A DNA stretch of 64,000 bases from Neovahlkampfia damariscottae. Lineage: Eukaryota > Heterolobosea > Selenaionea > Neovahlkampfiida > Neovahlkampfiidae. Below the pieces are notes generated by a model. It was not told the DNA's origin and searched no databases. It saw only the letters and a list, made by a program, of their open reading frames with translations. The translations under genes were made by a program, and so were the position numbers. This document shows, piece after piece, positions 1 through 64,000 of this stretch (position 1 is its first letter; every line of letters begins with the position of its first letter). The stretch is from the NCBI GenBank assembly GCA_016618085.1, contig JABLTG010000039.1, positions 56,945 through 120,944 of the forward strand, written 5' to 3'.

Positions 1-806
1 TTGATTGTCAAAATTTCATTTTGATGTGTTGATTTTAAACTTTCTAATTCAAGACGTTGTTCTATTTTAACTTGTTTCACTTCAGATTCAAGTTGTTTTG
101 AAAGTATTTTTAATTCTAAATTTTCATTTTCAAGTTTTTCTTTGATTTTTGTAATGGCTGTAAGTTCATATTCAACTTCTCTAAATTTTGAAACACTTTC
201 ACGTGATTCATATTTTAAAGTATGTAATTCAGATTCAATTTCATCTTTTTCTTTAGCATTTCTTTCTAACTTTCGAATTTTTGAATCTCTTTCATCCATT
301 TTTTCTTCAAGTTGTTTTTTTTGTTCTTCAAGAAGTGTTGCTTTTGTTGTTGATTGTTCACATTCTAATTTGAATTGTTCAATTTGTTTTTTTTGTTCAA
401 CCATAATTTCTTCAGGTGTTGGTCCTTTTTCAGGAATATTTGCATTTTGTAATTTATTTTTTGTTGAACTTCCTAAAGGTTTACGAGCTATACTATTCCT
501 TCCAGTTGTTGTGGTTCTTGAAAGTCTTGAAGTATTTGTATTTCTTGTTGAAGAAGTTGTAGGTCTAGTTGTACTTGTTCTACTGGTAGAAAGTCTGTCT
601 GATAGTGATTGTCTACTTCTACTAGTTGTTGTTGTTGAAAGTCTACTTGTTGAAAGATTATTCTCTTTGTTGGAATTAAATTTGGTCAAAGTTAGATTTG
701 TTGCTTTTGTGGTAGTTGGTTTCTTTACAGTTTTCTTCACTTGTGGTGATTCATCTCTTTTTGTTCTATTGTTCAACGTATCCCAAACTTGGTGTTGTTT
801 GCTCAT
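1..806 (-). CDS. Coiled-coil protein, N-terminal part (kinesin-14-like tail?)
   Basis: An open minus-strand frame runs from an ATG at 806 off the left edge of the window. The first 130 or so residues are basic and rich in Ser, Thr and Arg, with a run of SRLSTTT-type motifs. From about residue 145 the sequence becomes a long charged coiled coil (repeated E, K, Q, L heptads) that continues to the edge. A basic, disordered, microtubule-binding-type tail followed by a coiled coil is the layout of C-terminal-motor kinesins (kinesin-14), but no motor domain is visible, so that is only a guess. A TGATTGG promoter element lies about 50 bp upstream. The plus-strand frame across this region is its antisense shadow. 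Confidence 0.65.
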   Translation of the reverse strand, partial: MSKQHQVWDTLNNRTKRDESPQVKKTVKKPTTTKATNLTLTKFNSNKENNLSTSRLSTTTTSRSRQSLSDRLSTSRTSTTRPTTSSTRNTNTSRLSRTTTTGRNSIARKPLGSSTKNKLQNANIPEKGPTPEEIMVEQKKQIEQFKLECEQSTTKATLLEEQKKQLEEKMDERDSKIRKLERNAKEKDEIESELHTLKYESRESVSKFREVEYELTAITKIKEKLENENLELKILSKQLESEVKQVKIEQRLELESLKSTHQNEILTI

Positions 807-2236: not shown

Positions 2237-2468
2237 CGATTTGATTGGGTATTTTTTTGGTTGGATTTTTTTACAAAAAAAAAACTATGAAAAATTTACA
2301 AAAGAGACTTCAAAATGACAAGAAAATGAATTTTGACAAATTGATGTAAATATGATTGGTGGAATAAAAATATCTCGATTGGGGTCGGAATTACTTTTTT
2401 ATCAATTTTTTTGACAAAAATGCATTTCACAAAAACCATTTAACATTGACGGAGAAATTAAGAATTGT

Positions 2469-2475
2469 CCAATCA
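2469..2475 (+). promoter_or_regulatory. CCAATCA promoter element
   Basis: CCAATCA lies 25 bp upstream of the ATG at 2501. It falls inside the longer frame that would have to begin at a TTG at 2465, which supports the ATG start. Confidence 0.5.
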
Positions 2476-2500
2476 CCAGACTAAAATTTTTAACGTCGTT

Positions 2501-3838
2501 ATGAGTGACCACGATAACATCGAAGAACCAGGTAATTCACCTCAAATAGAGACCATAGAATCAAAAGATAAAGCTCTGGAAGCAGTGGTTGCTCATTCAC
2601 ATATGTTGCAACATGTTTCACCAAAACTCCAAAAAGACAAATTTGTCGTTCTTGAAGCTATTAAAAAAGATCCATATAATCTTTGCGCTGCATCAATCGA
2701 ATTACAAAATGACAAAGAAATAGTTTTAACTGCTGTATCTTTGAACGGAAATGTTTTACGTTTTGCTTCAAAAAACTTGCAAAGTGATAAAGAGGTTGTT
2801 TTAGCTGCTGTAAAATCAAATGGAAACTCATTACGTTACGCTTCAAAAAAACTGAGAAATGACAAAGAGATTGTGAGCCAAGCAGTATCCACTTGTGGCT
2901 TTTCCATTTTTGAAGCATCAGAAGAATTACAACAAGACGAAGAAATAATATTATGCGCTATAAAAGAAGACCTTTCTTTATTTTCATCATTAACTTCATC
3001 ACAAATGTCAAAAGAAGTAATACAATTTTGCCTAAATGGAAATACATCCTTACTCAAATATGTACCTTTAAAATTTTATGAAGATGCTGATATCATTAAA
3101 TTTTTGATAAAAACAGAACCTAGGTTAATTCAGAAATCTAAAGTTGCTCTTAAGAATCCAGAGTTGGTATCTATTGCTGTTGAATATGATGGTTTATTGT
3201 TAAATTATGCCCATGAAACTGTACAAAATAACTTTGATGTCGCTTTGATAGCTGTAAAAAATAATGGATATGCTTTAGAGTTTTGTAGTCCTCAACTTAG
3301 GAATGACCCACACATTGTTGAAGAAGCTGTAAAACAAGAAGGTTTTGCTTTGAAATTCGCATCTGAAGAATTAAAAAATGATAAATATGTTGTTCTTAGA
3401 GCTATTGAACAAGATGGTGGTTCTTTACAATTTGCTTCAGATGAATTTAAAAACAACAAAGAAATTGCAATTGAAAGTGTAAAAAGAGATGGTTGTTCAA
3501 TTGAATTTTGTTCACCAGAATTAATTGTTGACCGAGATGTAGTTATAAGTGCTGTTACAAATGATGGAAATGCTTTATATTATACTTCTGATGAAATAAA
3601 AGAAGACAAAGATATTGTTTTACTTGCTGTTTCAACAACAGGAAATGCTCTTCAATACGCATCAGATGAATTGAAAGATGATGAAGAAGTTGTTTTAACA
3701 GCTTTCAAACAAGACTCAGATGCTGTTTCTTTTGCCTCTGAAAGAGCTCAAATGATTCTTGAAGAATTATTGGAGAATGGTGAATTATCAGAATCAAGTC
3801 CACAACCAAATTATTATTCTGATGATGAATTTATTTAA
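2501..3838 (+). CDS. DUF4116 repeat protein
   Basis: A single-exon protein of about 445 residues made almost entirely of 24-25-residue DUF4116 repeats. Each repeat reads roughly L-N-D-K-E-[IV]-V-L-x-A-V-x-x-[DN]-G-x-[AS]-L-[RQ]-[FY]-A-S. At least a dozen copies can be counted, with the central ones (residues 150-240) more degenerate. The C-terminus is acidic and Ser-rich. DUF4116 proteins are expanded in protists such as Naegleria and in some large DNA viruses, and their function is unknown. I chose the ATG at 2501 over an upstream TTG. A decayed fragment of the same family lies at 7.84-7.98 kb. Confidence 0.85.
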   Translation: MSDHDNIEEPGNSPQIETIESKDKALEAVVAHSHMLQHVSPKLQKDKFVVLEAIKKDPYNLCAASIELQNDKEIVLTAVSLNGNVLRFASKNLQSDKEVVLAAVKSNGNSLRYASKKLRNDKEIVSQAVSTCGFSIFEASEELQQDEEIILCAIKEDLSLFSSLTSSQMSKEVIQFCLNGNTSLLKYVPLKFYEDADIIKFLIKTEPRLIQKSKVALKNPELVSIAVEYDGLLLNYAHETVQNNFDVALIAVKNNGYALEFCSPQLRNDPHIVEEAVKQEGFALKFASEELKNDKYVVLRAIEQDGGSLQFASDEFKNNKEIAIESVKRDGCSIEFCSPELIVDRDVVISAVTNDGNALYYTSDEIKEDKDIVLLAVSTTGNALQYASDELKDDEEVVLTAFKQDSDAVSFASERAQMILEELLENGELSESSPQPNYYSDDEFI

Positions 3839-9670: not shown

Positions 9671-9743
9671 CTCCTCCACTTGGGTTCGAACCAAGGACCT
9701 GTAGGTTAACAGCCTAACGCGCTACCGACTGCGCCATGGAGGA
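9671..9743 (-). tRNA. tRNA-Asn (GTT), copy 1
   Basis: A 73-nt cloverleaf. The acceptor arms TCCTCCA/TGGAGGA pair fully, the D-arm is GCGC/GCGC, the anticodon loop is CTGTTAA (anticodon GTT), and the T-loop is TTCGAAC. The anticodon stem has a T/C mismatch at its outer pair. GTTCTTTTTT, a poly-T terminator, follows. Confidence 0.95.
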
Positions 9744-9794: not shown

Positions 9795-11150
9795 ATGAAT
9801 ACAAACCAAAAGAAATCAACCAACTTCCATTGGTCAATGTTTTTCCGTTTTTTCTGCGGCTTAGTTTTGCTCAACAGTTTTTTCTTTTTGGTTTTTAGTC
9901 AGACAGAGTATCCAAAAGAATATCACCACATACTTTCTGCAGCAGTCGCACAAAATTTATGTTCTTCAATTTTTATCAGCAAAAGAGAATTTTCAACAAC
10001 ACCACCTTTCATAGAGGATTTATCAGATGGTCCAGGATATTACTCAACAATTAAAGTAGATAAGAAACAACAATTTGTTATCGCAACATCCATCAAATAT
10101 CCAGAAATTCAAAAAACATCAAAATACATCGATAACTATCGTGGATGCACAATTATCAGAGAAGATTTGTCCACCTTTAAAAAACGAGTGTTTCCACTAA
10201 AAAGAAATAAAAAAAATAAAAAAACAATGAACATTCAAATTGAAAAAAATTCAGAAATTGAGAAAATAATCAATGAAGAATTCCAAAATGAAAAAATCAA
10301 AACAAGATCAATTATTGTTTATCATAAGAAAAAAATTATTGGTGAGAGATATACAAATGAATTTACAAAAAATACTCGTCAATTCGTTTGGTCAATTACA
10401 AAATCAATCACAAATTTGTTATTTGGTGTTGCAATTCATCAAAAAAAATTGAAACTTGAAGACAAAATATCCGCACCTGAATGGTCACCAAATGATGAAA
10501 GAAATCAAATGACAGTATTAGATGTTTTGAAAATGGCTTCTTCATTGAATTTTACAGAAAAATATGGATATAAATCAGATCCAGCAAAATTGGTTTATAA
10601 TTCAACTTCAATGGCAAGTTTTGCATCCAAAAAGAATTTGAAAAATAAACCAGGAACTTTATGGAATTATAGTACTGGTGATTCAAGTATTTTATCAAGA
10701 AAATTGAGAAGTTGTTTCAAATCTGATGAAGAATATTGGAGATTTCCACGCGAACAGTTATTTGATAAAATTGGAATTACTGAAGGTTCATTGATCAATG
10801 TTGATTCAAGTTTGACTTTTGCTGGAGGTGTATTTGGTTATTTTACACCACGAGATTTGTTAAAAATTGGTATATTCTTGTTGAATGATGGAATAGTTGA
10901 AGAAGAAAGAATTTTACCTGATTATTGGATAAAATTGACATCAACACCGACTGAAGTCTCTAGAGGATTCTATGGATTACATTTTTGGGTCAGAAGAGAA
11001 CTTCCAAAAAACTGTTTTGTTGCAGTTGGCTGGAGAAAACAATTGATTTTGATTTGTCCAAATTTAGATTTGATTGTGATTCGTCAAGGACTCACAGATA
11101 TATTTTGGAATGAAATAACATTCTTTAGAAAGATTTTAAACGCAATTTAA
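9795..11150 (+). CDS. Secreted or membrane serine hydrolase, beta-lactamase (class C) family
   Basis: A single exon of about 450 residues with a hydrophobic N-terminal segment (FFCGLVLLNSFFFLVFSQ) that acts as a signal peptide or anchor. The class C beta-lactamase/NylB-type nucleophile motif SxxK is seen as WSITKS near residue 200. A Tyr-containing second motif (NYSTGD) follows near residue 292. These enzymes hydrolyse amides or esters; the substrate is unknown. An alternative ATG at 9837 sits just after an ATTGGTCA element and would give a cleaner signal peptide, so the true start may be there. Confidence 0.75.
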   Translation: MNTNQKKSTNFHWSMFFRFFCGLVLLNSFFFLVFSQTEYPKEYHHILSAAVAQNLCSSIFISKREFSTTPPFIEDLSDGPGYYSTIKVDKKQQFVIATSIKYPEIQKTSKYIDNYRGCTIIREDLSTFKKRVFPLKRNKKNKKTMNIQIEKNSEIEKIINEEFQNEKIKTRSIIVYHKKKIIGERYTNEFTKNTRQFVWSITKSITNLLFGVAIHQKKLKLEDKISAPEWSPNDERNQMTVLDVLKMASSLNFTEKYGYKSDPAKLVYNSTSMASFASKKNLKNKPGTLWNYSTGDSSILSRKLRSCFKSDEEYWRFPREQLFDKIGITEGSLINVDSSLTFAGGVFGYFTPRDLLKIGIFLLNDGIVEEERILPDYWIKLTSTPTEVSRGFYGLHFWVRRELPKNCFVAVGWRKQLILICPNLDLIVIRQGLTDIFWNEITFFRKILNAI

Positions 11151-13546: not shown

Positions 13547-13619
13547 TCCTCCATGGCGCAGTCGGTAGCGCGTTAGGCTGTTAACCTACAGGTCCTTGGT
13601 TCGAACCCAAGTGGAGGAG
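13547..13619 (+). tRNA. tRNA-Asn (GTT), copy 2
   Basis: The same 73-nt sequence as copy 1 but on the plus strand, again followed by GTTCTTTTTT. It is divergent from the amidase gene and faces copy 3. Confidence 0.95.
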
Positions 13620-13936: not shown

Positions 13937-14009
13937 CTCCTCCACTTGGGTTCGAACCAAGGACCTGTAGGTTAACAGCCTAACGCGCTACCGACTGCGC
14001 CATGGAGGA
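13937..14009 (-). tRNA. tRNA-Asn (GTT), copy 3
   Basis: The same 73-nt sequence on the minus strand, 317 bp from copy 2 and inverted relative to it. The downstream flank is GATCTTTTTGG rather than GTTCTTTTTT, so its terminator is weaker. Confidence 0.95.
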
Positions 14010-16078: not shown

Positions 16079-16151
16079 CTCCTCCACTTGGGTTCGAACC
16101 AAGGACCTGTAGGTTAACAGCCTAACGCGCTACCGACTGCGCCATGGAGGA
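16079..16151 (-). tRNA. tRNA-Asn (GTT), copy 4
   Basis: The same 73-nt sequence as copy 1, including the flanks CAAA upstream and GTTCTTTTTT downstream. Confidence 0.95.
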
Positions 16152-17450: not shown

Positions 17451-18617
17451 ATGGGCAATGTTACAGCAATTGGATCAGACCTTACACTTGATGTAGCTGA
17501 ATCAATAATAGATAAATTTGATTCTGGAAAATCAACAAATCCAGTCAAAAAATTTGAAAATGAGTTAAAACAACTTGAACAAAAGTCAAAACTTTATTAT
17601 GAAAAAACTAAACTTCCATCACAAAAAATACAAAAATTTTCGTTTTTTCCTTTCATATTTGAACGTCCAAATTCTCTAACTATGAAAATAATCAACATGG
17701 TCAACAAAGAAACATGGTTTGTTATTTTTGAAAAAGTACAAAGTTCAAAGTTTATCAATTTTTTTGAAGATGATTTAGTTTTATATGTTCACCAAGGTAA
17801 TGATTCATCTGTTTCAATATTTGAACTTGAGATTCAAAAATCTGATCAAGATTCACTTGAAATTAATGATAAAACATATTTAGCTAAAAAAGTATCACAA
17901 GAATTCCCTTTACAGGATGAAAATATTTATTTTCGTTTTTTTAGATTTAACAAAAATCTTGCAATTTCCAGTGATGAAGGCTTAAAGATGTATGATGAAA
18001 AAACTGGCGAATTATTGAGCTATGATTTGGAAATATCTGGAAGGGTCATTCCAACTTTGAATGAAGAGTATCTCTACCTTCCAGCAATGTATTGGTATAA
18101 TATGGGATTGAATGAGATGACCACACTCAAAAAGATCAAAAATGACGAATTTAGAAACACTATGATTGGATTTCAAACAATTTCTAACAATGGTGAATAT
18201 TTGTTGAAGGTTGATTATGGGGCATCGATTATCAAAGTTTATCAAATGTCAATGATGAAAACTGACTTGAATTCTCTATTCAAGAAATCTATCATTGAAT
18301 TTTCTTTGATCAATAATATTGTCAATGTTAACTTCTCATATGATTCAAATTATGTTATTGTTATTTGTTGGATGGATTCAAGTTGCGAAAATTATGAACT
18401 TTTTATTTTTTCAATTGAAGAAAAAAAATTTGTTCTCTATGTTCCTGATTCGAAAGAAGAAGATTTTTTTTCTTATGAAAATTATTTATTTCTTGGGAAT
18501 ACATGTGATGATGATGAAATTAACGCAAAATATATGATGAAGTTACATATTCCTGATCACAAAATCAAATCAATTAAAAATGATCATTTTAGAGATTTGC
18601 AATTTAAATTTGAGTAA
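17451..18617 (+). CDS. N-myristoylation-type beta-propeller-like protein, paralogue A
   Basis: A single exon of 388 residues. It begins MGNVTAIGSD, with Gly2 and a small residue at position 6, which fits an N-myristoylation signal. A short coiled-coil-like stretch follows (KKFENELKQLEQKSKLYYE). The rest is beta-rich, with WD/propeller-like strands (LAISSDEGLKMYDEKTGELL, VNFSYDSNYVIVICW, ELFIFSIEEKKFVLYVPD). The family is unrecognised. It is a tandem duplicate of the gene at 19314-20444 (about 40-45% identical by eye), and the Fanzor fragment lies between them. Confidence 0.75.
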   Translation: MGNVTAIGSDLTLDVAESIIDKFDSGKSTNPVKKFENELKQLEQKSKLYYEKTKLPSQKIQKFSFFPFIFERPNSLTMKIINMVNKETWFVIFEKVQSSKFINFFEDDLVLYVHQGNDSSVSIFELEIQKSDQDSLEINDKTYLAKKVSQEFPLQDENIYFRFFRFNKNLAISSDEGLKMYDEKTGELLSYDLEISGRVIPTLNEEYLYLPAMYWYNMGLNEMTTLKKIKNDEFRNTMIGFQTISNNGEYLLKVDYGASIIKVYQMSMMKTDLNSLFKKSIIEFSLINNIVNVNFSYDSNYVIVICWMDSSCENYELFIFSIEEKKFVLYVPDSKEEDFFSYENYLFLGNTCDDDEINAKYMMKLHIPDHKIKSIKNDHFRDLQFKFE

Positions 18618-18681
18618 AGATTCGATTTGTAAAAGTGAAATTTTGAATATTTTGATTTCTTTATTTCATTTAAATGTATCT

Positions 18682-18790
18682 GCTATCTTAAAACTGACTT
18701 TTCTGTTCATTCTGATTAATCAAGGTTTCTTTTGGGATAGGACCGTCGCCAGCAGTACTGGCAGTTTTTGGATTTCCAATAAAATTTTGT
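18682..18790 (-). ncRNA. Candidate guide-RNA scaffold at the 3' end of Fanzor copy 1
   Basis: This overlaps the last codons of the nuclease fragment and ends where homology to copy 2 ends (GTCAGTTTTAAGATAGC on the minus strand). It contains the hairpin GCCAG/CTGGC with loop cagta (18748-18762, plus-strand coordinates) inside a GC-rich patch that stands out in an AT-rich window. TnpB and Fanzor guide RNAs overlap the 3' end of the gene, so this is the expected place. There is no transcript evidence. Confidence 0.35.
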
Positions 18791-19092
18791 ATATTCATCA
18801 GAAATATATTTCTTGCTCCATTATAATCTCTTGGAAGAGAAAAATTACAATATTTACAATTGAAATGATCTTTTTTTCCAAGTTTCCAATCTATTTTTCC
18901 ACATGATCCACATGTACAACTGGTATAATGTTCTGAAACTTCATGTACTTGAACAGAATCTTTTTGAGCAAGATGTTTTAGTGTTTGACGAAATTGAAAA
19001 TGAGACCAATGAAGCATTTTTCTCACTGTTGTACTATGAATTTTTCTTTCCCATTTTTTAATCATTCCTTTGACTGGAAATTTTGAAATCAA
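18688..19092 (-). pseudogene. Fanzor/TnpB RNA-guided nuclease, C-terminal fragment (copy 1)
   Basis: The frame holds the last 130-145 residues of a TnpB-superfamily nuclease. Seen in order: LISKFPVKGMIKKW (the RuvC-II strand region), TVRKMLHWSHFQFRQTL, VHEVSEHYTS, a zinc ribbon with CGSCG and CKYC, then LPRDYNGARNIFL with the RuvC-III Asp. The tail TASTAGDGPIPKETL recalls bacterial TnpB ends. The usual RuvC-II Glu position holds Ser, and the Glu of SEHYTS matches the alternative catalytic Glu described for Fanzors. Upstream, the frame hits TAG at about 19126 and no N-terminal half is readable, so this copy is probably dead or its exons are hidden. A full protein would be 400-700 residues. The listed start is only the open segment; there is no credible ATG. 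Confidence 0.8.
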
Positions 19093-19127
19093 AATTTCAT
19101 CATTCGAGATCTTTTTCAGTATTTTCT

Positions 19128-19157
19128 AGTTGAACAAAAGGTCTTTTTTGTTCAACT
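19128..19157. repeat. 12-bp hairpin upstream of Fanzor copy 1
   Basis: AGTTGAACAAAA (19128-19139) and its exact reverse complement (19146-19157) flank a 6-nt loop. It sits just beyond the recognisable nuclease frame. Confidence 0.6.
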
Positions 19158-19258
19158 TGAACAACTTCAAGTAAAAATAACTGGCAAAATTAAATCTAAT
19201 TGACCACTTTTATCACAATAACCATCAATTCATTAGCCGTTAATCTTGAAAAACAAAA

Positions 19259-19265: not shown

Positions 19266-19313
19266 TTATTTTGATTGTGGATATTCTTAGCACAACTTCA
19301 CATCAATTGCAAG

Positions 19314-20444
19314 ATGGGCAATATAACAGCAATTGGATCAGACGTTTCAATTGATGCAGTTGAATCCATAGTTGATTCTGGAAATACTAACATTGTATTA
19401 CAAAAATATGATAACGAAATAAAACAATTGGAACAAAAATCAAAACTATATTTTAAAAAAGAAACAATTATACTCCAAAAAATGACATTAAAATCAGATT
19501 CACCTTTAACTTACGAACTAAAAAATGAAAGTACAATACATATATTCAATATCCTCAACAATACTTGTTATAAAGTCTTTTTTCAAAAAAGATTCCTTCA
19601 TGAAGTGTTTGATTTAGAATTTTTCGAAAAGGATTTAGTGTTATACATTTATGATACAACTGTTGTTTCAATTTATAAATTGACTCAAAAATCGAATGAA
19701 CAATGTGATAAATATTTGGCCCAACTATCTGCTGAGATTTTTCCTTCAGAGAATGGAAGTCAAACTTATTCTCTTTTTAGATTTGAAAAAAAACTTGTTA
19801 TATCTCATTTAGAAGGTAATTTAGATTTTTATGATGAAAAAACTGGTGATTTATTGAAAACAAATTCAAATTGTATTGGAAATCTCACTAAAACCTTGAA
19901 TGAAGACTTTATTTATTCGAAAGGTTTTTGTTGGTATGATATGAGTTACGAAGAAATGAATCAAAATTCAAAAACCATCCCTGGATTTCATTCAATTTCT
20001 AATGACGGAAATTATATTTTACAGGTTGATTATTTCAAATCATTAGTCAAAATATATCAAACTAACTCATTGAGAACTGAATTGACTTCTCATTCAGACA
20101 ACTTCATGATTCAATTTTCATTAATCAATGAAATCACCACAATTGAATTTTCTTATGATTCAAAATATATAATTGTAATTTGTTCTATGGATAAGAAAAA
20201 TTCAAATTTTTTTTCTATTTATGAACTTTTTATTTACTCAATTGAAGAAAAGAAATTTGTTTTATACATTCCTGATTTGGATAAAAACACATTTAGATCT
20301 TTTGAAAATTATTTGTTAATGGGAACAAAATATGGGAGCGAGCAACTCAAAGCATACAGTCTGAAATTAACTTTACACATTCCAAATCACAAGATCAAAT
20401 CCACTCAACTTTGTTTTAGAGATTTACAATTCAAGTTTAAATAA
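19314..20444 (+). CDS. N-myristoylation-type beta-propeller-like protein, paralogue B
   Basis: A single exon of about 376 residues beginning MGNITAIGSD, nearly identical at the N-terminus to the gene at 17451. Shared blocks are IKQLEQKSKLYF, DFYDEKTGDLL, IEFSYDSKYIIVIC, LFIYSIEEKKFVLYIPD and the C-terminal FRDLQFKF. I rejected a longer frame starting at TTG 19275. The conserved MGN start in both paralogues supports lipid anchoring. Function is unknown; a membrane-tethered propeller scaffold is a reasonable guess. Confidence 0.75.
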   Translation: MGNITAIGSDVSIDAVESIVDSGNTNIVLQKYDNEIKQLEQKSKLYFKKETIILQKMTLKSDSPLTYELKNESTIHIFNILNNTCYKVFFQKRFLHEVFDLEFFEKDLVLYIYDTTVVSIYKLTQKSNEQCDKYLAQLSAEIFPSENGSQTYSLFRFEKKLVISHLEGNLDFYDEKTGDLLKTNSNCIGNLTKTLNEDFIYSKGFCWYDMSYEEMNQNSKTIPGFHSISNDGNYILQVDYFKSLVKIYQTNSLRTELTSHSDNFMIQFSLINEITTIEFSYDSKYIIVICSMDKKNSNFFSIYELFIYSIEEKKFVLYIPDLDKNTFRSFENYLLMGTKYGSEQLKAYSLKLTLHIPNHKIKSTQLCFRDLQFKFK

Positions 20445-20476: not shown

Positions 20477-21529
20477 TTAAATGGATTGATTTTCACTGCT
20501 CAATTTCGATTTTTTTTCTGTTGAATTCTCTTGAACTTCATCCATGTTTTTTCTCTTTTTATTGTCATTTCTTGAGATTTTCTCTAATTTCAAAAAATGT
20601 TCAAATCCATTATCAATTCCACTTTTTATCAGTTTTGCATTTGCAATAACATCATCCAATGCACAATGAAATTTTTCATTAATACTTCTGTGATGTTCAC
20701 ATTTATCATCGTGTTCAACGAATCTGGCAGCCTGATGTTCAACATGACATAAATGGTCAATTTGCATATCTAAATCATACATTCCAACCACTTCATACAA
20801 TTCAAAAATATGTAAATTTAAATTCCAATTCAATCTTCTTGATATCCAATCAAATGTCTTAATTTCTGTCAAAGTGTTTTTTGCGAATAAAATTGGAATT
20901 GAATGATCATAATCAATGAAATTTAGAAAATTATTCATTATTGTTTTTAAACTCTCACTTGTTAATTTTTGCATTTTTCTGAATGGCAAACCATGAATAT
21001 GTTTTTCTGAATATTTACCAAGATAGGAAAAAGCAAGTGGATTTATGAATGCATGGAATTTTTCAACAATTTCACCTGTTTTTGCGTTTATTTTAACGCA
21101 TCCAATTTCAACTGGAAAAAAGTCTTCTTCAATTGAATAAGCAAGTTCAAAATCAACAGAATAAATGAATTCTAGTTGTTTTATATCTGGAACTAATTTT
21201 GGTTTGTATTCTGGTCCAAAATATTCTTTCTTGGAATCAAAATTATTTGCCAGTCTCACACCAATAATTTTTTTTTTTTCCCCTCGTTTCCGAAATGGTT
21301 GCCCACAAGTTTGAAAAATTTCAGGATATTTTTTCAGAAATACATCCAAACTTTGTGATTTGATTAATTTTGATTTTTCTTCTTCTGACAAATAATTAAA
21401 AACTTTTTTCAATGATGATGTTTTATCTTTTGGAATATTTTCTGCAAAACCTTTGAAAAATACTGGATCTATATATTTTTCATTTTCAATCATTTTTGGA
21501 ATCAGTTTGATTGTTTCATTCTTTTTCAT
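20477..21529 (-). CDS. Maelstrom-like DEDDh exonuclease domain protein
   Basis: A single exon of about 350 residues. The N-terminal 125 residues are Lys-rich with short helices. Residues about 130-310 resemble the Maelstrom/DnaQ-H fold: FIYSVDFELAY carries the D-x-E motif, EIGCVKINAKTGEIVEKFHAFINP is the Maelstrom-style strand pair, KNTLTEIKTFDWI carries the third acidic residue, and KFHCALDDV carries the final H and D. A Cys/His cluster (LCHVEH...KCEHH) lies just before, where Maelstrom proteins have their Glu-Cys-His-Cys motif. Animal Maelstrom (piRNA pathway) has lost the acidic set; here both sets appear. The start at 21529 was chosen over a TTG, and CCAATCA lies about 30 bp upstream. Confidence 0.55.
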   Translation of the reverse strand: MKKNETIKLIPKMIENEKYIDPVFFKGFAENIPKDKTSSLKKVFNYLSEEEKSKLIKSQSLDVFLKKYPEIFQTCGQPFRKRGEKKKIIGVRLANNFDSKKEYFGPEYKPKLVPDIKQLEFIYSVDFELAYSIEEDFFPVEIGCVKINAKTGEIVEKFHAFINPLAFSYLGKYSEKHIHGLPFRKMQKLTSESLKTIMNNFLNFIDYDHSIPILFAKNTLTEIKTFDWISRRLNWNLNLHIFELYEVVGMYDLDMQIDHLCHVEHQAARFVEHDDKCEHHRSINEKFHCALDDVIANAKLIKSGIDNGFEHFLKLEKISRNDNKKRKNMDEVQENSTEKKSKLSSENQSI

Positions 21530-21747
21530 TGCTGCTTTTTTTTGTGGCAAAATTGAGTGATGTGATTGGTTAGGTTTTCTTCAAACTGTTTATTGGCTAA
21601 AAAATCCATTTTAAAATATAATTATTATTCTTCTATTTCTTGAAGTAACAAATGCCAATATTTAATGGTTTCATGAACAAATTATGTTTCAAGAGATAAT
21701 TCTTAATTTGAAGCAACTCAAAAGAGGTGCACCAAAAAAAACAAAAT

Positions 21748-34728: not shown

Positions 34729-36547
34729 ATGCAAAACGAACAAACAAACATTTCCGTTTCAAAAATTGAAAAGGAAGAAAATGAACTGAAAGGATTCATT
34801 GAAGGTGAAATAAAAACATTGTCAAATGAAAAAACTGGAGTATTGAATCTCATTCTAGAAGATACATTCAGCAAACCAACGTCAGCAAAAGATATGACCA
34901 TTAATTCAACTATTCTTTTAGAATTACCCCCAAGATGGTCGGAGTTAATTAATGGAATTGTAGACTTGAATGTAAGAGATTTTTTTTCTAAAGTTTCTTC
35001 AACTAAAGGATCTTGTTTCAATTTATTGTGCTACTGTCAAAAAGAATGATAGAATTGATATTCCACATGATTTTAAGTTGACAATAAATTCAAAATCATC
35101 CATATCCATTCAAACAAAAGAAGGCACTGTCACCATTGATCAAGAAACCATCAACTCAAAAAAATTAGTTTGGAGAGGAAAAAAAAGAAAAATCAAAGAA
35201 AAAATTGTAAATAATCCGAAAATAGTTACACCAAAATACAGCTATACAAAATTAAAAGATGTCAAAGAAGGAGATATTTATAATTGTTTTGGATTTGTTG
35301 AGAATTATTCCAACCCAAGATCTGGATGTAATCATTTTTAATTATTGATTTTTAAGATTACACAAATATGACACTTACTATTAGAGATGAAACTGGTCCT
35401 TTGAATTTACTGATTCAAGCAAAAGATAAATCTCAATTAATTGATGTAAAACAAATTGGAGATGTTGTACGAGTACATAGATTGAAAGTAATCAAATATC
35501 TTGGAAAGTTACAAGGAAATGAATCACCTGGTTGTGATTTCTATCTTTCTCCTATTGACTCAATCAATATTGAAATACCAAAATCAAAAACATTTACTGA
35601 ATTGGATATTGAAAGAATCAAAGAACTAAAAGTTTATTCAAAGAAATATTTACAAAAAAATTCATTAAAAAATCAATTTACTTGTACAGTTTCAACAATT
35701 CAACCTTTAAAATATGTTGATATCATAGGTAGAATTACTATGGCAACAAAATTGAGTTTTGGTTATGTTATTCATTTTAATGATGGAACAGAGAATGATA
35801 AACTTGGATCTTCTCTTGAAGTTCAAGCAACAAGTTCTCATTTACAAGATGTTATTGCTGAAATACAAAAAAGATTAAACATGAAAAAAACGGTTTTTGT
35901 AAAATTAAGAAATATTTTTTGTGTGCACTCATTTGCAGAAGTAAGAACTGTTGACAATTCTTCAATTGGATTTTTACCTTCTTTTTGTTTGGATGTTAAA
36001 AATTTGAATGAACTGAGAACCAAGATTGTCACTTCAACAAAATTCTCCAAAGCTCCTTCATCAATTTCTCAAGTTTTGGAATGTCAAGAAAGGAATGCTA
36101 AATTCAAAATTATTGTGAATGTGATTGATAGTTATCCATCAAATTCAAATGAATTCATTATTTTATCTTGTCCTCAATGCAATCAAGAATTAAATAGATC
36201 AATTTGTAAGAAATGTAATATAGAAGGGAAATATGTATTTTGTTTTAAATTGTTGTTGAAAGATAAAACTGGTGAAATGACAACATATATATTCGATAAA
36301 CAGGCAGTAAATAGAATTCATTTTGAATTAATTTTCAAAGGAACATTTTTTTGGAATCAAAGCTTCAGAATTGAAAGATAATCTTGAAAATCAAGTTGAA
36401 TTATCAACTCAAATGAAATTACTGAAAAATTCAAAGAATTTCTCTGAAATTTGTTTATTTTCTTATCAAATTGATAAAAAGAAATTTTATCAAGTCTATG
36501 ATACCAAATGCTTGAAGGAAGAAAATTTTGAATCATTTATTGAATAA
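34729..36547 (+). CDS. POT1: POT1-like telomere end-binding protein, with one suspected frameshift
   Basis: Introns lie at about 34972-35009 and 35330-35356. The OB fold at residues about 185-280 matches the Telo_bind/POT1 OB1: YTKLKDVKEGDIYNCFGFVE, MTLTIRDETGPLNLLI, IGDVVRVHRLKVIKYLGKLQG. Further OB-like strands follow, and a zinc knuckle CPQCNQELNRSICKKC lies near the C-terminus. POT1 binds single-stranded telomeric DNA. After IFKGTFF the frame breaks at a run of seven T (36346-36352); dropping one T gives an open frame to TAA 36547. This is either a sequencing error or a real lesion. The stop is 3 bp from the convergent GFA gene. Confidence 0.75.
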
Positions 36548-53633: not shown

Positions 53634-56003
53634 ATGGAAAAGTTAACAAATAACCTTGCTGATAGTAACATCAACTCTTCATATGGAACAGTCATAGGTC
53701 TGATCCTTTTCACAATTTTCAATACAAAACTAAACCTTGGGTTTATAATTTATATGTCTTTTGAACTATTTATTGGGTTTCCGCTGGTACAACATGTATT
53801 CAAAGGTAAATACTCAGAACCAAAAACTATAGTGTTTATGTTTGTCAGAGGTTACCTTGTATCAATTCCACTGTATTAATTATTTTTTTCTAATTTTCAC
53901 AACAGAATTTGTTACTTGCTGCAGTCAGTGGATGCTCTTCTATTACTTTTCATGGTGATGTTAATCAGTAGTAGTGCTTATTTTCCAAATCAAAAATCCA
54001 ATTTTATGAATCATTTATTTTTTATGACACTTCACTCTTACATTGGAGCTATCATGATATTATACTTGAAAGTTTCCTGGGTAAAAACATTAAACATGCT
54101 ATTTTTCACCTATTGGGTTGTTTTTTACATCATATACTTAAAAGAAAACGTCACAACTGTCACAAAGAGACTTGATAAAAATTTAGAAAGTTATGAACAG
54201 ATTTTCGTTCATGTTGAATCGACAATCATGAAATTGAACAAAAAACTAGACATTATTTTCATAAACAAAGACTTTTTTGATTTAAAAAAAGAAGAATTAA
54301 TTGGAAAGAATATCAAAGAATTATTCAATGATAAAGAATTTGAAGAAAAATTAAAAGACATGAAAAAATTACCTTATACTGAAGTTAAAAGAGTTTTTGA
54401 TGAAAAAATTCATTATTTTTGTTGTTCTGGTACAAAAATTGAAGAAGAAAATGAAATTCTTTTAGTACTTGATGATATATCGTATAAGAAGAATGTTGAA
54501 GAAAAAGAAAAATCAAGAATCAAAGCAGTTTCTTCATTAAAAGCAAAAACAGAATTTATTGCGCAAATATCTCATGAAATTAGAAATCCATTACAAGTTA
54601 TCAATTACTGTTCAGAAATTTTGGCTTCTTCAAATTTAGGTGATGAACTTCAAAAAATTACATCTGATATTGTTAGATCATCAAAATTACTAAAAGTTAT
54701 TATTGGTGATATTCTTGATATGTCAAAAATAGAAGTTGGAAAAATGGAATTGACCATTCAAAAATCGAATCTTGAAGAGGCTATTCATGATGCTATTCAT
54801 ATGAACTCTGTAACTGCTTACTCAAAAGGATTAAGAATTTATCATTATTTTGATTTTAATCTTCCAAAATATTTTGAAGGTGACGTTTCAAGATTAATTC
54901 AAGTTATGAATAATTTGATCTCAAATGCAGTTAAATATACTAAAAAAGGATATATTTCAATTTACTCAAAAATGATAAAAAAAGATGATGAAGTAAAATT
55001 TAGATTTGAATGTAAAGACACTGGTATTGGAATTTCAAAAGAAGGTATTGATAAATTGTTCACACCTTTTGAACAAATTCATCAAAATAAATTATCACCA
55101 ACAAATTTCAAAGGATGGGGATTGGGATTATCAATTTGTAAAGCGTTATTCAACTTGATGAATGCTCAATATGGAGTTGAAAGTGAAATAGGTATTGGAT
55201 CAACATTTTGGTTCGAAATTCCATTAAAATCACCAAGTACAGATAATATCAACACAGGTATGCAATTATCTATCCAAAAAGCAATCATTTTGTTTCCACA
55301 TAAAGAATATTCAAATTATCTCATTGGTCTTGCGAAATCATTTGGAATTCAAAAAGCATTTAATGATTTGAATGAATCAATTATGAAAGATTTTGATTAT
55401 CAAAGAGATTTATTAATTTTTGATGAATCAATGTCTCCATTAGTAGAGAAATACGTAAAATCAAGTGTCAAATTTGGTTTTGTAATATCTGAACAGAAGC
55501 ACAAGAAATATGTCAATATGTCACCTCCATTATACATTGTTGAGCTCATTAATACATGTCTTGGTAGATTGTCTGAAAGAAAGAAATCTAGTACTCCAGA
55601 AGTTTTGCAACATTTCAAAATATTGGCAGTGGATGATAATCCAATGATTTTAAAATCAATTAGTCATTTATTGAAAAAATTGAATTTTAGTCAAGTTGGA
55701 ACTGCAAAGAATGGAGTTGAAGCAATTGAATTAATTGAAAAGGAGGACTATCATATTGTTTTAATGGATATTCAAATGCCAACAATGAATGGAATTGAAG
55801 CAACAAAGATAATTAGAGAAATGAAAGATGAATCAAAATCCAAAGTTACAATTATTGCTTTGACAGGAAATGCTATTGAAAAGTCAAAAGAAGATCAATG
55901 TAAAATATGGAGAGTTGATGATATTTTGATGAAGCCTGTAAATAAACAAGAAATTTTGGAAAGTATTGGAAGAAATTTGATGAAATTTGATGAGGATAAT
56001 TGA
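53634..56003 (+). CDS. Membrane hybrid histidine kinase with receiver domain
   Basis: Two exons with the intron at about 53875-53906 give about 780 residues. About six hydrophobic helices fill residues 15-190. A PAS-like stretch follows (LDIIFINKDFFDLKKEELIG). The phospho-acceptor H-box is FIAQISHEIRNPLQVI, the N-box is MNNLISNAVKYTKKG, and the G-boxes are DTGIGIS and GWGLGLSICK. A degenerate receiver lies near 55270-55560, and a complete receiver at the end has AVDDNPMI, VLMDIQMP (phospho-Asp) and ILMKPV. It would sense a signal at a membrane and relay phosphate to an HPt protein not found here. Confidence 0.92.
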
Positions 56004-56056: not shown

Positions 56057-57083
56057 ATGGAAGTGAATGAGACAATTGAGAAGTTGTTTCATGAACAACA
56101 TGAAAATTTTACTTCTTCAAGAAATAAGATTGTAAAAATGAAAGAACAAATTGATTTGTTTTTGAAGATTTATCTGAAAGGTATTCTCTTAGCAACAAAT
56201 GAACCAACAAAAAAAAAAATTTCCAAAAATTTAACTTCGAAAGTTCTTTTAATATTAATTTCTAATCAATTAGGAAAACATAACAAAATTTTATTTGTTT
56301 GAAGAAAAGATAAAGATTAGAATAGCTGGTGATCCAAATTTGATGAAAGGAACTTTAACTTCAACAAAATTTATACCTGAAAAAATACATCAATATTTGA
56401 TAAAAATATATTCTCAGATTATGAATTTACAAGAATATATTGATCAATTTAACAATTTTGATTTAAAAGATTTTAAATTTTTACATTTTGGAAAAGTTGA
56501 AAAATTAAATTTGAAAGACATAAAGTTTGAACAATACAAAAAATATAAAATTGATACTCTGAAAACTATTCATGAGGAATGGAATAAAAAAGATTTGAGA
56601 GCTTTTATTAATGAATTTGAGTCAAAAGAACGTCTATTTTTTGATAAACAGGTTCGCATTTTTATTTGTAAATTACCAAAAGATTTTTTGTGATAAATTC
56701 ACAATTGAAAAGAAAAAAAAGAAAGAAATTAAAACAAAAAAGCAATTCAAATGGGAGAAATTATTAGAATCGATGCAATATCAATCTGGAAAACTCAATG
56801 AAGAAATTGATGAGAAAATAGAAAAAATTGAAGAAAATACTGAACGTGAAGGTGAAAAATCAGAATTTGAATCATTTTCAACAATATTCCACAAACTCTA
56901 TGAAAATTTATTCATTTACAATCAAACACCACAATGTATCTTATTTTTTCTAAAAAATTTTCGACAGATTACACAAATCCAAGGGAAATAAGGTCAGTAT
57001 TATCATCAGATCAATCTGATGATTTCAAAGAAAACGCGATCATTGATTACATAAAACAAAATTTGAATCCTTCATTTTTATAA
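56057..57083 (+). CDS. Unrecognised coiled-coil protein
   Basis: An N-terminal exon (MEVNETIEKLFHEQHENFTS) is followed by exons rich in Lys and Glu (YLFEEKIKIRIAGDPNLMKG, FNNFDLKDFKFLHFGKVEKL, KKQFKWEKLLESMQYQSGKL). A last intron at about 56936-56969 joins PQY to YTNPREIRSVLSS, and the protein ends IKQNLNPSFL. The junction after the first exon (about 56180-56271) does not keep frame with an obvious GT-AG pair, so the model is provisional. The context offers no functional clue. Confidence 0.5.
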
Positions 57084-63439: not shown

Positions 63440-63550
63440 ATCCTTATTATTTTAATTGACACTTTTCACAAGTATACCATATTTTGATTGTCTATTTTTT
63501 AACCAGTCAGATTAAAAAGGTGGGTTCAAAAGATAAATTGTAGGGTTTCC
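63440..63550. other. Intergenic flank of Fanzor copy 2
   Basis: No gene. Immediately next to the element end the minus strand reads GGAAACCCTACAATTTATCT, the predicted guide segment. Confidence 0.3.
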
Positions 63551-63660
63551 GCTATCTTAAAACTGACTTTTCCGTTCATTCTGATTAATCAGACCAGACA
63601 TTAAAATCAAGGTTTCTTTCGGGATAGGACCGTCGCCAGCAGTACTGGCAGTTTTTGGAT
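63551..63660 (-). ncRNA. Candidate guide-RNA scaffold at the 3' end of Fanzor copy 2
   Basis: The same GC-rich hairpin as copy 1 (GCCAG/CTGGC with loop cagta, 63635-63649) and the same terminal GTCAGTTTTAAGATAGC, interrupted by the 18-bp insertion. Inferred from position only. Confidence 0.35.
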
Positions 63661-64000
63661 TTCCAATAAAATTTTGTATATTCATCAGAAATATATTTCT
63701 TGCTCCATTATAATCTCTTGGAAGAGAAAAATTACAATATTTACAATTGAAATAATCTTTTTTTCCAAGTTTCCAATCTATTTTTCCACATGATCCACAT
63801 GATCCACATGTACAACTGGTATAATGTTCTGAAACTTCATGTACTTGAACAGAATCTTTTTGAGCAAGATGTTTTAGTGTTTGACAAAATTGAAAATGAG
63901 ACCAATGAAGCATTTTTCTCACTGTTGTACTATGAATTTTTCTTTCCCATTTTTTAATCATTCCTTTGACTGGAAATTTTGAAATCAAAATTTCATCATT
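63557..64000 (-). CDS. Fanzor/TnpB RNA-guided nuclease, C-terminal part (copy 2, partial)
   Basis: The frame is open from TAA 63557 to the right edge, so the gene continues beyond the window. It has LISKFPVKGMIKKW (Ser at the usual RuvC-II Glu site), VSEHYTS with the alternative Glu, and a zinc ribbon that carries an extra CGS triplet (CTCGSCGSCG ... CKYC). PRDYNGARNI supplies the RuvC-III Asp. The C-terminus has six extra residues relative to copy 1 (LMSGLI). Fanzors are eukaryotic RNA-guided DNA endonucleases of transposon origin related to bacterial TnpB. Whether this copy is intact depends on the missing N-terminal part. Confidence 0.85.
   Translation of the reverse strand, partial: NDEILISKFPVKGMIKKWERKIHSTTVRKMLHWSHFQFCQTLKHLAQKDSVQVHEVSEHYTSCTCGSCGSCGKIDWKLGKKDYFNCKYCNFSLPRDYNGARNIFLMNIQNFIGNPKTASTAGDGPIPKETLILMSGLINQNERKSQF

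Follow-up and report, generated by a model that had tools for sequence, protein, structure and literature searches.

What kind of element leaves two almost identical pieces of one gene in a single stretch of a eukaryotic genome, and what would move it? The stretch analysed here, the window, is 64,000 nucleotides long and spans positions 56945–120944 of contig C240, which ends at 120,944, in an assembly of 20.4 Mb and 307 contigs; the right edge of the window (64000) is the end of that contig. An earlier note on this DNA had seen two copies of an RNA-guided nuclease at sites with unlike flanks and a common left boundary, and had taken them as signs of recent movement. Our analysis supports that interpretation in part. 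A recently dispersed, bounded element of the TnpB/Fanzor type is present, with defined ends and a mean difference of 1.3% (maximum 3.2%) among 25 right-end rows, from which two duplicate rows were removed and in which copy C256 was not caught by the pattern. The two nucleases, by contrast, dissolve on inspection into fragments.

The two window copies and their family

The two segments, copies A and B (Table 1), are identical at 423 of 456 positions (93%; BLASTN, E 0.0). They differ, much as first described, by 6 substitutions and 27 gap positions, the latter in one 18-nt and one 9-nt indel. The translations of both contain PRDYNGARNI and a zinc ribbon, and both match PF07282 (Cas12f1-like_TNB), at 55.0 and 61.2 bits against a cut-off of 26.3. 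Because the gene lies on the minus strand, the common left boundary in plus-strand coordinates is the right end of the element: copies A and B stop at the same element base, 18680 and 63549, respectively, and the flanks beyond are unrelated. Both segments exist as reported, except that copy A reaches beyond 19110, as far as 19240, and includes a retained left end.

Judged from its sequence, copy A derives from a longer element by internal deletion: the two ends and the 3′ portion of the gene remain, and about 1.3 kb, including RuvC-I, is gone. Its left end reads ACGGCTAATG..., with ACGG at 19240–19237, and this left end, the deletion junction and the right end are common to six other internal copies; one base of its right tip is changed. 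It lies between tandem paralogues, as had been observed, and the similarity of the downstream paralogue to the upstream one starts at frame residue 14, the ATG at 19314. Copy B is a C-terminal piece that stops at 64000 because the contig ends there, its upstream part lying outside the assembly. The extra CGS in its ribbon is a 9-nt tandem duplication, absent from the other 24 rows compared. Its end is the exact base at which short and long copies diverge, and contigs C96, C237, C256, C267 and C291 end likewise, which we attribute to assembler behaviour at a repeat fork. Neither window copy, as read from its frame, encodes a nuclease.

Table 1 Coordinates of the copies, their parts and neighbouring genes in the window, with one junction elsewhere in the genome
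Feature	Position	Strand	Remarks
Copy A, complete short non-autonomous ‘ghost’-type element	18680..19240	-	561 bp; left end 19240, right end 18680
Copy A, retained left-end segment	19105..19240	-	matches left ends of longer and other short copies
Left-end motif, candidate transposase-binding site	19201..19211	-	offset 29 from tip; AAAAGTGGTCA in copy A
Copy A, remnant 3′ Fanzor frame	18688..19104	-	zinc ribbon and RuvC-III kept, RuvC-I deleted
Copy A, predicted guide-RNA (omega RNA/reRNA) scaffold	18680..18813	-	weak fold; by analogy to IS607 right ends
Copy A, putative guide flank	18660..18679	-	first bases beyond right end
Copy B, family 1 right-end part	63549..64000	-	cut by contig end at 64000
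Copy B, C-terminal Fanzor frame	63557..64000	-	open to contig end; zinc ribbon with extra CGS
Copy B, putative guide flank	63529..63548	-	first bases beyond right end
Host gene, paralogue 1, upstream of copy A	17451..18617	+	44% identical to paralogue 2
Host gene, paralogue 2, downstream of copy A	19275..20444	+	44% identical to paralogue 1
Maelstrom-domain protein	20477..21550	-	RNase_T weakly; adjoins copy A
tRNA-Asn (GTT)	9671..9743	-	
tRNA-Asn (GTT)	13547..13619	+	
tRNA-Asn (GTT)	13937..14009	-	
tRNA-Asn (GTT)	16079..16151	-	
Protein with eight DUF4116 repeats	2465..3838	+	
Protein matching Pfam Beta-lactamase family	9795..11150	+	serine hydrolase fold
Weak POT1 (telomere protein) match	35368..36381	+	under curated cut-off
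Hybrid histidine kinase	53916..56003	+	HisKA, HATPase, response regulator, weak PAS
C20/C273 shared flank	L130 (C20) 161-304; L131 (C273) 50-193		broken family 1 left end beside

Genome-wide, the protein of this family (family 1) gave 150 matches, several being fragments of a single copy. Mapping of the ends by pattern yielded 105 right ends (23-base pattern, up to 2 mismatches) and 94 left ends (33-base pattern, up to 3 mismatches), with 0 hits for either reversed-pattern control. The tips are ACGGC[CT]AATG on the left and GATAGCGG on the right, the latter altered in a few copies, copy A among them. AC forms the first two letters in 91 of the 94 left ends and ACGG the first four in 87, a fairer count than the ACGG in 52 of 52 left flanks, which a script had selected by seeking that string. 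Beyond the tips nothing is strongly conserved (52 left and 48 right flanks), and no inverted repeats, target duplication or conserved tail were seen at the ends and flanks. Family 1 thus has ends of the IS607 type, with GG at both tips and neither inverted repeats nor target duplication. GG stands at the tips of IS607 as well (as described in PMC6188088), and GG is described as the site of IS607 exchange, which otherwise shows little preference among targets (PMC6188088, PMC4058570). The A/T that follows the right end in 46 of 48 flanks was dropped as a preference, since ACGG in the window precedes A/T in 33 of 37 cases anyway.

A search with the joined flanks of 8 copies yielded no empty site, 16 of its 17 matches being the copies’ own halves; the remaining one was a partial match (91%) of the C273 right flank in C20. 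On inspection this last candidate proved to be a rearranged paralogous stretch that carries, at that base, a left end of another family, and it was rejected as an empty site. Because no empty site was found, the AC of ACGG may be either part of the element end or a target or nuclease motif.

As far as sequence and distribution tell, family 1 is a dispersed transposon family of about 100 copies, with a Fanzor as its sole gene and IS607-like ends. Its one full-length copy assembled end to end, C144, measures 1,871 bp from left to right end; its Fanzor frame has one frameshift, no second gene is apparent on that strand, and no TnpA serine recombinase lies inside it, the locus being absent from the TnpA and Resolvase matches of a genome-wide six-frame search. 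The right end of the family sits 8 nt past the stop codon. The N-terminal part of the protein can be read in C71 and C198 and the C-terminal 384 residues in C260, open to the contig end; none of the assembled copies has both ends with an undamaged gene between them, and the frame is pieced together from separate contigs. Breaks of the assembly at the element are frequent. An element end lies within 2.1 kb, with the body pointing off the contig, at no fewer than 71 contig starts and 62 contig ends, so that at least 133 of 614 contig termini, at least a fifth, fall at a family 1 element; the count is a lower bound, with 100 of the 105 right ends used and 32 of 194 ends, on contigs of unknown size, left out.

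The protein carries the motifs expected of a Fanzor. RuvC-I is present as IIALDPGVRTF in the C260 copy, and across 84 aligned relatives the D and P of its DPG are invariant and the G is kept in at least 90%. What we take to be the place of the canonical RuvC-II glutamate holds none (ILISKF), and a shifted glutamate precedes the ribbon in SEHYTSCTC; S253 and E304 are invariant among 12 aligned sequences. The RD of RuvC-III and a C4 zinc ribbon follow. DPG together with the shifted glutamate is described as a molecular fingerprint of Fanzors (PMC10711439). A profile search extends the PF07282 matches of the window copies, with NF040570 (guided_TnpB) reaching 102.4 bits on the C260 piece against a cut-off of 100. 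The best sequence match with a solved structure is mimivirus L79 (PDB 9b0l), both for this family (E 1.2e-21) and for family 2, described below (8.7e-16), and named distant relatives, Pandoravirus and cyanobacterial proteins among them, show 34–36% identity. The family 1 gene is accordingly read as a Fanzor, the eukaryotic TnpB, with RNA-guided cutting as its predicted activity; a tentative assignment to Fanzor2 is suggested by the IS607-like ends, and the nearest solved sequence is that of L79.

The start of the protein is MSKQLKLDSFWKEK in 5 of the 5 fetched copies in which a script found the start, a count set by selection, as the script sought MSKQL. Two unnamed database relatives of about 55% identity begin MSKQLKLDSFL and MSKQLTLDSFL, and compared with relative P0009, 11 of the first 12 residues are the same and 4 of the next 24. 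An N-terminal conserved island, MSKQL[KT]LDSF[WL], followed by poorly conserved sequence, is visible in L041, L044 (C71), L045, L046, L047, P0008 and P0009. The consensus for PCNA binding is Q-x-x-h-x-x-aromatic-aromatic. The family 1 start, MSKQLKLDSFW, resembles such a PCNA box: in its own genome it fits the consensus, and in the relatives it ends in L. A PCNA-box-like string occurs within the first 40 residues of 2 of 132 collected relatives, a number of which are fragments, and a literature search for a connection between Fanzors and PCNA returned nothing relevant.

A second family and the recombinase

A second family, family 2 (C3 and others), has the IS607 layout, in which a TnpA with MerR-type and Resolvase domains is followed by TnpB; at the C3 locus this serine recombinase and the TnpB stand in that order. 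Its TnpA scores 176.6 bits against an IS607 transposase model (cut-off 110), and its TnpB has the same fingerprint as family 1 and is about 40% identical to it over the C-terminus. Patterns for family 2 gave 29 left ends (control 1) and 23 right ends (control 0); with 94 and 105, respectively, family 1 is some three to five times as numerous. The genome-wide six-frame search found six places with a Resolvase domain, and all 6 are family 2 TnpA loci; it listed no other protein with that domain.

The ends of the two families invite comparison. The ends of family 2 have in common an inverted AAAAGTGACCA, and family 1 has AAAAGTGGCCA (copy C39, used for the test) at offset 29 from the left tip, as family 2 does; an 11-base motif, AAAAGTGRCCA, lies at that offset in the left ends of both. 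With one copy standing for each family, a fixed-register segment score of the left ends gave p = 0.0005 against random window stretches, none of 20 shifted registers scoring as high, and the longest run gave p = 0.007; the plain match count (p = 0.06) and a free local alignment (p = 0.38) were not significant. Agreement between the right ends is weak (p = 0.011), one of the 20 shifted registers doing as well; the cross-pair intended as a control, right end of family 1 against left end of family 2, reached p = 0.002, a score that none of 20 shifts equalled. Similarity between the left ends is test-dependent, with only run length and the fixed-register score significant.

A further observation comes from the C20 stretch rejected above as an empty site. 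There, a family 2 left end adjoins, at the same base, the flank that adjoins the family 1 right end in C273 (Table 1), which would reflect either an exchange between the ends of the two families or two insertions at one site. Together, the lack of a further Resolvase protein, the common left-end motif and this junction favour movement of family 1 in trans by the family 2 TnpA, which they suggest without proving.

The chief competitor is a different mover: a recombinase that the genome no longer has, that the assembly failed to capture or that belongs to a different class. The core dinucleotide seems to be GG in family 1 and TG in family 2, which speaks against one recombinase for both; the similarity of the ends is weak or test-dependent; and, as the assembly breaks at these repeats, a transposase-bearing master copy of family 1 could be hidden. 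Against it stand the three observations just combined, namely that no additional Resolvase-domain protein was found, that the left-end motif lies at equal offset in both families and that a family 2 left end in C20 and a family 1 right end in C273 adjoin the same flank at the same base. We hold a separate mover to be unlikely, though a possibility with real weight.

Short copies, putative guide RNAs and host context

Seven internal short copies, including copy A, retain the left end, resume at one common position within the 3′ portion of the gene and continue to the right end, over 561–588 bp in all. All seven are ghosts, in which both ends and the right-end RNA region are kept and the full gene is missing. 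Their deletion junction recurs at 16 places (up to 2 mismatches). A second internal deletion is present at 6 loci (C8, C22, C58, C171, C234 and C236), with joints that overlap by about ten bases, and a one-base frameshift is common to 8 loci, one of which (C127) is of the short form. As these deletions and the frameshift are shared by many loci, copies seemingly unable to make the whole protein have spread. Replacement and silent changes stand at 18 : 4 in 12 long-context rows; the 7 short rows have 15 : 5 and one stop, and the corresponding sites number 354 : 84. Set against the sites, these ratios make no purifying selection between copies visible, and the changes look neutral.

The short copies might instead be host-domesticated C-terminal TnpB mini-proteins, such as a ribbon-domain repressor. 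Several of them keep an open frame of about 145–151 amino acids, and in copy A an in-frame ATG 21 codons past the upstream stop makes a product of about 120 amino acids possible. The 15 : 5 of the short rows, with its stop, is not clearly unlike the 354 : 84 of the sites, however, and the common frameshift reaches a short-form locus too, so we give domestication little credence. Still less probable is an origin as LINE-like, 5′-truncated retrotransposed cDNAs of a TnpB mRNA, which might have been suggested by a 3′ end that is fixed while the protein search shows several apparent 5′ ends. For copies with a left end this reading is refuted: the seven internal short copies have that end and one common deletion junction, many of the apparent truncations are contig ends, and the flanks show no conserved tail or duplication.

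The right-end rows also form a mosaic: of 9 SNP columns free of gaps, 7 are variable among short and among long copies alike, and 16 of the 36 SNP pairs do not pass the four-gamete test. This could be gene conversion among copies or chimeric assembly of the repeat; because the latter could also explain the pattern, we do not use it as evidence.

By analogy with IS607 elements, the right ends may act as a guide-RNA scaffold and the adjoining flank as the guide. The family 2 right end folds strongly (z = -4.61, with 0 of 200 shuffles as good). Two family 1 right-end folds are just slightly ahead of their shuffles, at z = -1.75 and -1.31 (copy A), with 10 and 21 of 200 shuffles as good, respectively; the last bases of the family 1 right end are predicted to pair with an upstream CCTATC stretch. 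Rfam gave no match to the right ends at the gathering score, and the weak matches were to unrelated families.

The genes around the copies bear on whether the contigs could be prokaryotic or giant-virus contamination. TnpB and IS607 belong mainly to prokaryotes, giant viruses carry Fanzor2, and mimivirus L79 and the Pandoravirus and cyanobacterial proteins named above are among the relatives. A profile search of the window nonetheless found eukaryote-type genes, namely an acyl-CoA oxidase, RGS, S18, SAM, a protein kinase and F-box, which place the Fanzor in a eukaryotic genome. The named relatives of the acyl-CoA oxidase among the matches listed are two fungal proteins and one from Naegleria (28–34% identity), and unnamed database proteins reach 70%. 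Family ends stand at the termini of at least 121 of 307 contigs, and at both ends of at least 12, C240 included. Pattern scans of viral and prokaryote contigs turned up stretches of which none was confirmed as a close relative; phage records gave 6 distant matches, at 38–44% over 73% of the query. Contamination is thus very hard to credit. That the window copies are merely parts of a larger segmental duplication, as two highly identical segments in one window might imply, is almost certainly wrong, given that identity stops at one right-end base, that 48 right flanks differ and that the joined flanks returned in 16 of 17 matches (8 copies) the copies’ own halves.

Several other features of the window are recorded in Table 1. 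A Maelstrom-domain protein adjoins copy A; four tRNA-Asn genes of equal score lie inside 6.5 kb, on both strands; and the window encodes a hybrid histidine kinase, here in a eukaryotic genome, a protein with eight DUF4116 repeats, a member of the Beta-lactamase family by Pfam and a weak POT1 match.

A proposed mechanism and known systems

We consider it probable that the locus belongs to one dispersed Fanzor family, of which copy A is a shortened and copy B a contig-cut member, with IS607-type mobilization in trans, guides from ghosts and cutting by the nuclease. A family 1 element would be excised as a circle and inserted by the IS607-type serine recombinase of family 2. Intact family 1 copies, which we infer to exist somewhere in the genome, would make the Fanzor, and this would use RNAs transcribed at the right ends of both full and short copies, with the host sequence next to each copy as guide. 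The Fanzor would then cut insertion-free alleles beside an ACGG-like motif, and repair of the cut allele would restore the copy, a form of homing.

A bolder version, to which we assign a low likelihood, is a fully split system, in which the transposase sits on family 2 and the abundant Fanzor on family 1, ghosts contribute ends and guides only, and the PCNA-box-like motif ties the nuclease to the replication clamp. If so, each ghost would be a self-programmed homing unit operating wholly in trans, and the PCNA tie through MSKQLKLDSFW would mean that unoccupied alleles are cut where a sister or homologous template is present.

What Fanzors do for their transposons is a question left open in the discussion of PMC10432273. 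A young Fanzor family at about 100 very similar sites, ghosts included, in a compact genome with the serine recombinase on a separate family, offers a natural setting for asking it in eukaryotes; whether ghosts depend on a nuclease in trans and whether the ACGG at nearly all left ends stems from the transposase or from the nuclease become approachable.

Several known systems resemble family 1. One is Spu-1 of Spizellomyces punctatus, a Fanzor1 element, for which 42 Fz loci and 134 ghost loci with both ends and the guide-RNA region were described in 2023 (PMC10432273). As in family 1, the Fanzor is the single gene, copies are many, a short conserved motif lies left of the left end and, so far as that account goes, no transposase was found between the ends; gene-less copies outnumber the Fz loci there, and in human cells their RNAs are described as functioning together with that genome’s own Fanzor (PMC10432273). 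Spu-1 has 30-nt terminal inverted repeats, whereas family 1 has IS607-like ends without them; compared with Spu-1 ghosts, moreover, the short copies of family 1 still contain about 0.43 kb from the 3′ part, and the genome has an IS607 TnpA elsewhere (comparison with PMC10432273 as described).

In 2013 Bao and Jurka described Fanzor2 proteins carried by IS607-type elements in eukaryotes and giant viruses (PMC3627910). Family 1 shares with those elements the protein motifs and the lack of inverted repeats and target duplications that the paper reports, and family 2 shares their arrangement of TnpA followed by TnpB; unlike in them, no TnpA in cis was seen in family 1. The IS1341-type insertion sequences treated in the same source (PMC3627910) are also alike in having TnpB as sole gene and no inverted repeats or target duplication, but they are bacterial. 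With IS607 TnpB and the pro-Fanzors, as PMC10711439 presents them, family 1 has in common DPG and the shifted glutamate, GG tips and a right end that serves there as RNA scaffold; it differs in its eukaryotic host, long N-terminal extension and PCNA-box-like start. Mimivirus L79 (PDB 9b0l) has its glutamate at the equivalent shifted position of the alignment, in which only family 1 query residues 119–351 take part, and its host and N-terminus are different. Our searches for PCNA-box transposases, miniature TnpB elements and Fanzor families or ghosts met no title or abstract opening that describes family 1. The family is an addition to the known Fanzor and ghost elements, and its unusual trait is that the transposase and the abundant Fanzor are carried by separate families.
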